A stretch of DNA of 64,000 nucleotides, taken from assembly GCF_032854445.1 (NCBI RefSeq), contig NC_088297.1, positions 24,625,127 to 24,689,126 of the forward strand. Direction: 5' to 3'. A model generated the notes under the pieces. It was not told where the DNA came from. It made no database searches and saw nothing but the letters and a program-made list of their open reading frames with translations. A program made the translations under genes and the position numbers. Shown here one piece after another: positions 13,301 through 22,300 of the stretch. This DNA comes from Liolophura sinensis. Lineage: Eukaryota; Mollusca; Polyplacophora; Chitonida; Chitonidae. Every line of letters begins with the position of its first letter. The first letter of the stretch is position 1.

Positions 13301-16300
13301 AACGTGGCTTTTTGTTTTATTTTAACTCTTTCTTCCACCCCAAATCTTGATAGATGCTACAAGACTTGCCATGTCAATCCCTCTGGTTTTAGATGCAAAC
13401 TAATGAAAGCCATTAAAAAAAGGGAAATAAGACATATATGCTAATTCTTAAAACTTGTTGTTGTTGCAGGATGATATGTATTCAAGAATCCAGTATGCAG
13501 TCCTCTATCTGGTTTTCATCACTGCTGCCTATTTGCTCAAGTAAGCGTTTACCTTTATGCATAAGGTGCACATTGATGTTGAGGGGTCCTCCATGGCCTT
13601 GGGGGTCAGCTTGCCAGCGCGGTTAAATGACCGAGGAGCCTCTTACCAATGCTGTGAGTTCAAGTCCAGCTCATGCTGGCTTTCTCTCCGGCCGTAAGTG
13701 GGAAGGTCTGTCAGCAATCTGAAGGTGGTCGTATTTTCCCCCCTGGCTCTGCCCGCTTTTCTCTCGGCATAAGCTGGCCTTCGTCGTATTCTTGAGTACG
13801 ACATGAAACACCAATCAAATAAGTAAAAGAATGAAATAAAAGATGTGTAGTGAGGCTCTCCTAATGCGTTCCTCGTGGTCACCTACCTGTGGACTTGAGC
13901 TTCACCTGGAGCCTTTTGCTGGAAGGAATCACAGCTACATGTATACAATCAATGGGGAACTCCCTCTCACCTTTTGTTCTTTCCTTTTGTTACGCCACAC
14001 CGATTAGTATGTGTGTGCTCATAAAGGACACATGAAGTACACAAGGTGTTCAACTGCGATCAGGACCTTCTGTGTAGCTCGTCCTCGAGTCTCCGAGTGT
14101 AAATATTGCGACTGGCATTATGACTTTTTTATGATGATGACTGTCTGCTAAATTTGACTTGTACTTTGGCTGTGGTAGTATATACAAGTGGACAGTGTAG
14201 TATATACAGTGGGTGACTGTCTGCTAAATTTGACTTGTACTTTGGCTATGGTAGTATATACAAGTGGACAGTGTAGTATATACAGTGGGTGACTGTCTGC
14301 TAAATTTGACTTGTACTTTGGCTGTGGTAGTATATACAAGTGGACAGTGTAGTATATACAGTGGGTGACTGTCTGCTAAATTTGACTTGTACTTTGGCTG
14401 TGGTAGTATATACAAGTGGACAGTGTAGTATATACAGTGGGTGACTGTCTGCTAAATTTGACTTGTACTTTGGCTGTGGTAGTATATACAAGTGGACAGT
14501 GTAGTATATACAGTGGGTGACTGCTAAATTTGACTTGTACTTTGGCTGTGGTAGTATATACAAGTGGACAGTGTAGTATATACAGTGGGTGACTGTCTGC
14601 TAAATTTGACTTGTACTTTGGCTGTGGTATTATATACAAGTGGACAGTGTAGTATATACAGTGGGTGACTGTCTGCTAAAGTTGACTCCTACTTCAGCTG
14701 TGGTATTATATACAAGTGGACAGTGTAGTATATACAGTGGATGGATGACTGCTAAATTTGACTCATACTTCAGCTGTGGTAGTATATACAGGTGGACAGT
14801 GTAGTATATACAGTGGGTGACTGTCTGCTAAATTTGACTCGTACTTCAGCTGTGGCAGTATATGGGTGGTTATACACAGAGGTGTACTTTTTTGCATGGT
14901 CAACTTCAGTACATGTATTTTTTTATCCACCAATGTTGTATGTTTTATTCCAAAGTATCATTGTAATTAGCATATTGTATTTGAATAAAATTCACAATTA
15001 TAACACTGTGGGTTCTCCAGATAAATACTTTGAGCAAGAAATGCGTTGGTTTCTTAGGTTATTCTTCGCGACGAAATGTGACATGCATTGACAGTGTCTT
15101 TTCGACCTCCGTTTTTTCATTGCCACGAATGCCTTACCTTGGTTTTTTATACATTCCATAGCAAATGAAATCGCGTTTTTTGGGGTGATTAGCAAATAAA
15201 ACACATTTATCTTGTGTTTCCTTGGAAAATATCGCTTCCAGTTATTTGTTAGTCGGACGAACATTGTCCGTCATCCGCTACATAAATCTTTGAATGTTCT
15301 ATTTTGAGAAAGAAATAAAAGTTACTTGAAATTTTTGAAGTCACTGTGTCTTGTTTGTTGATGTTTTTAATGTGATCAGTCAAGAATGGTCTTGCTTTCC
15401 GTTGTTTTCGAGAAAAGACAATTAAAAATAATGTACTTCGCTTTCTGTCCGAAGTTACGCCCGACACACAGGCGTGTGTAAACCCCCAAAAAAACGGGCT
15501 ATTTATAGAAAACGTGCGGTCTACGTCATCAGTTCGGCAGCTAAACGTCATTTCCACCAGCGTCTCTGTTGACAAGCAGATGACAAGATGGCTCGATGGA
15601 AGTTAAGGGAGTCTGTCAAGGTAAGTTCCGCTTTCGACTGACGTTACGGGCGACACACGTAATTATGATACCATAATAACGGTCTTAGTACCCCATGTAA
15701 GATTTGTAGCGGTCCCCAGCTTCGAAATTTGCCAGTTTCTTGCTGTTTGCTGATGAGTTTCAAGCGTAGGTGTTGTGCAAAATGTTTCGTTTGGCTAAAC
15801 TTTGAGTCAGGCGTAACGATTAGACGGACAGTAGATTTGTCGGGTGTAACGATTAGACGGACAGTAGATTTGTCGGACGTAATATCCTGACGGAATTACA
15901 TTGTGTTGGACAAACATTTGATGGATTTTTCGTTATGTGGGATTAACCGACCAAAAACGGACGGAAATCAACTGGCTTTGAGTAAGGACAGGTGTGATAA
16001 ACAAACAGCAATAAATATAAACCTTTCTTTTAGTTTAAAAGATACTATACCATAGACTATTGGCCAAAAGTGTATCAATGCTAATCAAGCTAACTTTTCT
16101 GTATTTGTGGGGAATAGCCCAACTCAAATCAAATAAAAACAAAAAACATTAAACTGGCATGCATAGTATATTATTTTGTTAAACTGATATTAAAGTTGGG
16201 AAAGTCCATAATTCGACCAGAATGATTACCATTTTTTTTTTTTGTTTTTTTTCAAAAATCTGTGGTATAGTACCTTCAGGTTTCATAATCCATAGAGACA

Positions 16301-19300: not shown

Positions 19301-22300
19301 CCAAAGAAGCAAGCTCAGGTGTAACCTCCACCAGCCCTGCACCCATGAACCCTGATTTGGAGCCTTCACGCCCATCAGCCCGTACAACACCCATGGTTGT
19401 GTAAGAAGAGGTTGATGAAATTATGGACTTGTTCCCACAATTGAGAGATATGACAGATGCCTCACTTGTTGACAGGTAATAAAATAAAATAAAAATGCAA
19501 CACCCTTCCTCACCTAAAGACGTAGTGATTTAATGCATGGCATAGTAGATTTAATGCATGGCATAGTAGATTTAATGCATGGCATGTACACTAGCCAGAT
19601 TTGCAAATTATTAGAAAATTTAGTGAAGTACAAAACTGACAGTGCTGACTGACTTCACAGATGGCAGAAAAATGTAAGGGCTTCTATAGTACCATTGCCA
19701 TCTTGGTGGCTAATGTGTGGGGAAGTTGTCAGTGACTTGCCAATGGTCGATGTTTTACCCCAGTTTGTTGAATGGGCTACCTCCACCTGTAGTTATTCAT
19801 TAACGCTGACTCCCATGAAATAGTCTTCACTCTGGCCTTTTGTATGGAATCCCAATCAAACAACCCATTTTGGTGTAGATACTATTGAACCATCATGGCA
19901 TGCAGTCTTCCTGATCACAGGGCAGATTTCTCAAATGAATATTGCATACTTAACTAATCAGCTGATGAGAGAAAGCCCTGTTCACTTTACTATTCAACAA
20001 TGTATGGTACACTACAGAACAACGGGCAGTTATCTCAAAGTTCAGCATGGGTTAGAGTTGTATCCCGCTGTCGTAAGTACTGGTTTATGTTGAAGCGTTG
20101 TTTATTGTTTCTTTCTTTCATTTATATTTTGGTTTGCTGACTACCAAGCTGTCTGTTGATTGATATTTTTAATGTTTTTGTTGTCTTTATCTTGTGCCTA
20201 TCAAAATTTTTGAGCAAGGAAAAGACTGATTGTTCGGTGTTTTACACTCATTAGCGGCAAGTAAAAGTGAGCATAATCATCTTGAATTTTGGACTTCTGA
20301 AAGTATATGTACATGTATGATGTTTTAGTGAAGAACATTTTCTTCTTGGTCCATTATCTGGCTGTTTTTGGGTATTTAGATGTAATGCCCTTCAGGAGGA
20401 AAGATCATTCAAAATACTAGCTGCAAATCTGACATTAGGTCTCAACTATTGTTGTAAAAAATTGCATACTTCTGATAATTTTTTTAAACATGAATGTTTT
20501 TGAAAATGCAGTCATTGAAATTTACCAGATGTCTGCATGTTTCAGGTGGTTGATGCTCCTGCAGAATATGAAGATCCACCGAAAGGCACCTTCTATGCAC
20601 ACTATTTCCATCCCAGTATCAACAACCAAGATGAATGGACAATGGACGAAACCATACACCTTATTACTGTCGATGAGGTGGTCCATAGCCTGACACCCCC
20701 CGACATTCTTTCTCATGGACAACGTGTCGTGTATATTTTTGAGGACTTCTAATTTACACAGTCTTCTTCCTGTCAGCAAGAGAAGTCAGGAGATCCAGGT
20801 TCAAGCCAGTATAATGTGACTGGGTGGGGTTTATAGGCTACGTTAACACCCTTTTTTCACTGTACATTTGAAAGCCTTCAGAAACCTGTTCTTTCGACAG
20901 ACAACAGCATTGTGATCCAAGTACCTCTGCCAGGGCATTTTCAGCCAATCAATCGATCGTTCGGTATAAGTGGGAATTTCCTTATTTAGAAATAGCTCTA
21001 GATATCTGTACACCTTCACTACCACTATGGGGTGGAACATTCTATTTCATTCTTGTGTAGTAGTGCCAGAGTTCTGCCATCTCAAATCTGACACCTTTCT
21101 CTTTTCCTCAGTTTTGGTTCAAATTCCTGATTTAAGTGTACGCATCCCAACCGGAAGTGCTAGTAGAAGATGGGGAGCCATCATAAACATAAACAATATA
21201 ATGAAATTTAAAAAGCAACAAGGAAAAGGCAACAAACTCCAACGTTGGTAGCTGTCAAGTAAAGAATGAAGCCAAATTAGCACGCTGTGGTTGAGTAGTT
21301 GGTACAAAACAGGAGGCTAAAATAATTATTGACACACTTTCATATGTTGCTTGTTTCCTACAATAGTGAAAAGAATAGTTCTCACTTTATACTAATATCC
21401 AATTTATGTGTCCGTCTTGTGTTCGTCCAACATCTAAGTTGTCCGTCTTATGTTCATCCAACTTATATTTTGTTTTGTTCAAGTGCTTATTTTATGGACA
21501 AGATCAGTTTTCAGGCATTTTTTTGTATGAAATCATTCTACTAGCAACTGTTTACATTTTCTTAACCAGCTGCATTTAAGGGCAATATTATTTGGACATT
21601 TGGAGAGGGCACTGTCCGTCTTGTGTTTGTCCAACATAAAGTAGGTATTTCTGTAAAATATACTAATTCAGACATTTTTGCAAACTTTTTTACTTTAGAA
21701 TTGGTTTGCACTCTCAAACAAATGCATTTTTAATAAACTTTTCCATGAAAAGCTATTATTGTGTATGAAATTCACTTGTGTGTCTGTCAATGTTCGTCCA
21801 ACATACTAAAACCATCGACTATTCTTGGATTGTTATAGGTCAACAGGGCTGCTTAGTTATCTAATAGATATGCTTTTCAGAAAATATAATGATTATTTTA
21901 TGTGAAAAACAATTCATAATGTGAATCATGGTATTTTGAAAATTTTTTCAATTGTCACACATCATGGTACACCTTTGCATATAAGCACCCATATACAAGT
22001 GGACAGTGTAGTATATACGAGTGGACAGTGTACTAATCATTCACTTTTCCTGGTCTTCGTTTTCTTTTATGAGGCACTTTGGATCACAGTCTTTTGTTTC
22101 TTGATAGTGTCATTTAACAGACTCTGTTATGTGTATGTTTTAGCATTATAATTGTGTGATTTTACTTTCACTTTCAGTTTCTCTCGAGTGGCACTATGTA
22201 TGATGGTTATCCATTACCTGGTGGAGTTTGTCTTCCACACTTCTCGTCTTCTCTACTTTGCTGAAAAATCTGACCTAGCAGCCACAGGGTAAGTTAATTA

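Follow-up and report, generated by a model that had tools for sequence, protein, structure and literature searches.

Evidence for a Sola-like cut-and-paste transposon inserted at ATAT in the terminal unit of a minisatellite in the chiton Liolophura sinensis

In the 64,000-nucleotide stretch of DNA analysed here (Liolophura sinensis, NC_088297.1, positions 24,625,127 to 24,689,126 of the forward strand; hereafter the window), an array of 76-base-pair (bp) tandem units is interrupted by 7127 bp (14864-21990, plus strand) with ATAT on each side, which raises the question of what kind of element this is and where exactly it begins and ends. A sequence-only reading had proposed a DNA transposon with these boundaries, and the window sequence, the termini and further copies in the same genome uphold that proposal. 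Taken together, the evidence makes it very probable that the element is a cut-and-paste transposon with a triad of three aspartates (DDD), most like Sola, that inserted at ATAT in the last 76-bp minisatellite unit, probably within an intron.

Boundaries, sister copies and target site

The left terminal inverted repeat (14864-14887, plus strand) and the right one (21967-21990, minus strand) read GGGTGGTTATACACAGAGGTGTAC at one terminus and GGGTGCTTATATGCAAAGGTGTAC at the other, and our recount confirmed that 20 of the 24 bases pair. As a control, we ran 200 first-order Markov simulations of both end regions (630 and 620 bp) and scored the best pair of 24-mers in each; the highest score was 19, reached in seven runs, and 20 was never obtained. 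Since 19 was attained in 7/200 simulations, the terminal repeat by itself is only moderately better than chance. The element is flanked by the two copies of the presumed target site duplication, ATAT at 14860-14863 and again at 21991-21994 (both on the plus strand), but the inverted match carries on outward into these flanks, and because ATAT is self-complementary, duplications of 2 bp (TA) and of 4 bp both fit the window. The palindromic duplication thus means that the exact boundaries are not fixed by the window alone. The three signals that had been offered as independent did mark the right boundaries, yet they are partly dependent on each other through the palindromic ATAT and the inverted match that extends beyond it.

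The boundaries, and with them the 4-bp length of the duplication, were fixed by other copies in the 609-Mb assembly that includes the window. The left 137 bp of the element matched at least 11 places in this genome and the right 150 bp at least 13, while the 24-bp terminus pattern, allowing up to two mismatches, was found in 23 places (left and right ends together) and the reversed-pattern control in none. The 24 ends that were read correspond to 18 insertions, six of them two-ended, five with a left end only and seven with a right end only. The genome-wide terminus search suggested by the earlier reading accordingly yielded five two-ended copies besides that of the window, and an exact 4-bp duplication is present in all six: ATAT (window), AGAA, ATTT, ACAT, CAAA and ACAT, compared with a rate of 0.0067 for chance agreement of 4-mers elsewhere in their flanks. 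Copies ending at other positions had been named as refuting evidence; the termini are common to 6/6 two-ended copies and none ends elsewhere, the right end of L018, an older and more diverged relative, having diverged so that its BLAST match was extended by one base to reach the terminus.

For the 12 one-ended insertions, in which a duplication is uncheckable, we took the 4-mer outside the preserved end as the presumed target. Among the 18 sites, ATAT occurs in six and the majority bases are A, T, A and T (15, 14, 13 and 13 of 18, respectively), although only 7/18 sites fit AWWT strictly (ATAT six times, ATTT once). The target consensus is ATAT, and a TATATA-rich minisatellite is therefore a natural landing place. 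Two further possibilities were examined and dropped. Short copies resembling miniature inverted-repeat transposable elements were sought beyond a 1311-bp copy, L014, and all 23 places matching the terminus pattern were already known from the two end searches. The one-ended copies were also considered as chimeras with another end, and a check of the 12 loci (about 10 kb each) gave two left-like rows, in L033 (7 mismatches, no duplication) and L036 (12 mismatches, matching 4-mer), both of which we took as chance.

Tandem Repeats Finder and BLAST with the repeat unit placed the array, 9.6 units of 76 bp with two TATATA sites per unit, to the left of the element (14138-14863, plus strand) and the remainder of its last unit to the right (21991-22032, plus strand). 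The remnant on the right measures 34-42 bp, and the insertion thus lies in the last unit. When the flanks are joined and one ATAT is removed, the result is AGTATATACAAGTGGACAG, a 19-mer that occurs six times in the array, from 14177 to 14553. The empty site had been described as matching the neighbouring units exactly; an array unit is indeed rebuilt, but the match is exact only in six more distant units, the three closest to the insertion carrying variants of the 19-mer. Array sequence inside the element, the other observation named as refuting, was not found by BLAST of the unit at E up to 10. Likewise, no empty allele was found elsewhere in the assembly: among 40 candidates scored for each query, with simple repeats skipped, the array portion and the flank on the right matched only themselves, the other matches being dispersed repeats beside them. 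Overall, the sequence-only reading placed the boundaries and the empty site correctly, and independent copies now support both.

A broken transposase gene and its relatives

The element contains an open frame of 607 amino acids (aa) at 17581-19404. In a tblastn search, an intronless relative from the same genome (L023, 878 aa) aligned in three pieces, 16696-16965 (E 3e-05), 17354-17605 and 17650-19422, the last two together reaching E 6e-94 in different frames. From this alignment and from splice signals, we infer a model of four exons, all on the plus strand. Putative exon 1 (15588-15620) would start at an ATG and end at a GT donor, both read in the sequence, and lies outside the stretch aligned with L023; putative exon 2 (16783-17059), supported by the first L023 match and splice signals, would encode a basic N-terminal region; putative exon 3 (17356-19475), matched by L023 in two frames, would encode the catalytic region; and a putative last exon (20546-20752) is suggested by an AG acceptor and an open frame running to a stop. 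Exon 3 is broken twice, by a frame change between 17605 and 17650 and by an in-frame stop at 19402-19404, beyond which the L023 alignment continues for a few residues. The element had been called complete; its ends are, and the catalytic exon is present, but the transposase gene is not intact.

Conservation and a structural model point to a candidate D-D-D triad in the encoded transposase, with codons at 18565-18567, 18817-18819 and 18940-18942 (plus strand). In a 12-row alignment, the second and third aspartates were present in all rows and the first in 11/12, L023 having N at that position; the third acidic residue is an aspartate that follows the second by 41 residues. By eye, no C/DxxH was seen between the second and third aspartates of the window row, and the third residue is assigned by conservation and model only; according to PMC9587614, C/DxxH between these residues is a signature of hAT, P, MuDR, Kolobok and Dada. 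The modelled protein has an RNase H-like core resembling those of retroviral integrases, IstA and Mos1, from which it differs in lacking a detectable sequence relation and in having D as its third acidic residue, 41 after the second.

Six sites matching the motif TGTTCGTCCAACA with up to two mismatches were found in the window, all of them inside the element. Two lie on the minus strand near the left end (15251-15263, 2 mismatches; 15904-15916, 1 mismatch) and four in the opposite orientation, on the plus strand, near the right end (21420, 21451, 21624 and 21791, within 21409-21803). With up to three mismatches, the only level at which a control was run, 22 sites compare with 24.15 expected, i.e. 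no more than chance, whereas a longer 24-base version of the motif has three sites, all on the right, against 0 expected. These subterminal motifs may be binding sites of the transposase.

Relatives of the transposase in the same genome were matched down to 23% identity. For the L023 family no ends could be placed: in the pairs compared, similarity extends to the edge of the analysed DNA in at least one locus. Among bacterial and archaeal genomes, a single relative was detected (L056, 705 aa), which occupies a 4-kb contig (1-4028) of a bacterial metagenome-assembled genome and is probably contamination from an animal host; none was confirmed in viral contigs and none was found in phage records. 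We also observed that open frames of 603-960 aa persist in the diverged relatives L023, L029 (775 aa), L030 and L040-L043 of this genome, and because they do, several transposase lineages may be recent or retained.

Classification and rival explanations

The element represents a new family within the known cut-and-paste DDD type. It has the fixed terminal inverted repeats, the constant 4-bp duplication and, as modelled, the RNase H-like transposase with an acidic triad that are expected of a cut-and-paste element of the aspartate-aspartate-aspartate/glutamate (DDD/E) class. It is likened to Sola by description, not by transposase sequence. Sola elements are described in PMC10741241 as having a DDD transposase, 4-bp duplications, sizes of mostly 2-9 kb and terminal inverted repeats of 11-1124 bp, and our element agrees with such descriptions in its 4-bp, AT-rich duplications, its size and the DDD triad assigned from conservation and model. 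For amoebozoan Sola2, PMC3627910 gives AT-rich AWWT duplications, ATAT and ATTT included; the element differs in that its duplications also include AGAA, CAAA and ACAT. Sola1, Sola2 and Sola3 are listed in bivalves by PMC10294476.

Several results weigh against this classification. With the 606-aa piece as query, Pfam yielded no family at E up to 10, the window protein had no sequence match in PDB, where a 4-row profile gave only chance-like ones, and Foldseek searches against PDB and viral models found nothing that reached E 0.001. In a 28-row alignment that includes many fragments, no column was invariant. In addition, 12/18 insertions are without one end and duplications are checkable only in six, the exons are predictions from alignment and splice signals, and because its transposase gene is not intact, the window copy cannot be self-mobile as assembled. 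Further searches gave nothing above the Pfam cut-off for the exon pieces and three relatives and no match in Rfam, and a structure predicted from the single sequence was unusable, with a predicted local distance difference test (pLDDT) score of 31.5.

We weighed four other explanations. The element might end in TGGGTG...CACCCA and duplicate TA like Tc1/mariner, in which case ATAT would be partly element; in the window alone, the flanks are as compatible with a 2-bp repeat as with a 4-bp one and the inverted match extends into them, but in the five other two-ended copies the flanking bases are AGAA, ATTT, ACAT, CAAA and ACAT, with a TA duplication in 0/5. These copies refute the TA duplication, and we give this explanation practically no credence. 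Hardly more credible is an assembly artefact that placed unrelated sequence inside a collapsed repeat: minisatellites are difficult to assemble without error and no second allele in the assembly backs the junction, yet both junctions coincide exactly with termini known from elsewhere in the genome, and the 4-bp duplication has its counterpart at five other loci.

A Kolobok or KolobokP element is very unlikely. The terminal GG...CC of our element fits the 5'-RR/YY-3' rule, purine 5' termini and a DDD/E enzyme are common to both, and KolobokP is reported in molluscs among other phyla, all according to PMC9587614. By the same source, however, Kolobok duplicates TTAA, and Kolobok was rejected because this target is present at 0/18 sites here; KolobokP, with duplications of 3-5 bp, has long terminal direct repeats, whereas a repeat search for direct repeats of at least 16 nt found none joining the two ends of the element. 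Finally, this family together with its relatives in the same genome might constitute a DDD lineage outside all named superfamilies, with several branches keeping long open frames and this family marked by GGGTG termini and ATAT targets; we regard this as unlikely, though less so than the other three, and favour a Sola-like DDD transposon.

Copy history, genomic setting and meaning

Among the family members found, all three catalytic codons are present in the window copy alone; one further fragment spans the final third of the searched stretch, at 91% identity. In four copies (L009, L011, L015 and L036), about 2.2 kb (element positions 3487-5667) are missing, a stretch that contains all three codons, and the junctions of these copies are identical. 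Because they break at the same point, we conclude that one deletion was copied onward. Their right terminus is the same as in the window copy, as is the left terminus in 3/4. Kimura two-parameter distances among six aligned copies (window, L009, L011, L014, L015 and L036) range from 1.6% to 7.9%, the remnant L014 being 1.6% distant from the window copy. A dispersed repeat resembling a short interspersed nuclear element (SINE) lies in putative intron 1 (16575-16721, plus strand) and was found at the same place in 4/10 other loci tested, the L036 match spanning it too; since other copies hold it there, it predates their spread. The same SINE-like repeat is also seen in DNA around other copies, on both strands, and its form would by itself suggest a mollusc as the probable host. 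Conversely, the window copy is without three segments, of about 180, 200 and 70 bp, which are present in the four deleted copies (compare window 20830-21200).

In the Ac/Ds pattern, an autonomous element is accompanied by internally deleted copies that are mobilised in trans. The situation here is alike in that one copy has the transposase exon and four share one internal deletion, and differs in that the fullest copy is itself broken; no kinship with hAT is claimed. The transposase would bind the terminal and inverted subterminal repeats and then excise the element, the 3' ends would be joined to target strands 4 bp apart with the gaps filled by the host, and, as in the Ac/Ds pattern, one internally deleted derivative may later have been mobilised in trans by the transposase of intact copies.

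The element probably interrupts an intron, numbered 8 in the sequence-only reading, of what looks like an animal gene. Downstream of it, the nearest exon-like stretch (22179-22289) has a weak TLC-domain likeness (PF03798, E 0.0072, below the curated cut-off) and no match in a PDB search; presumably it is TRAM1-like. Elsewhere in the window, an open frame at 42185-42547 encodes a tetraspanin domain (PF00335, E 5.1e-11), and a dispersed repeat at 22423-22500 recurs in at least 40 other places of the genome at 86-89% identity. The window is also rich in other minisatellites, at 4180-6847 (53-bp unit), 8448-9484 (69), 22980-24686 (48), 35615-38568 (61) and 51844-57558 (37), the last with about 154 copies across 5.7 kb.

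The element is well documented yet ordinary, its family is little studied, and general understanding of transposons is unchanged by it. It offers a clean worked case in which a palindromic duplication, unable to fix its own boundaries, is resolved by means of sister copies, and its preference for ATAT explains the hit on a TATATA-rich minisatellite. A single near-full-length copy stands here beside a deletion derivative that has spread and diverged relatives with long open frames, which makes this genome usable for studying how deleted copies outlive their source of transposase.
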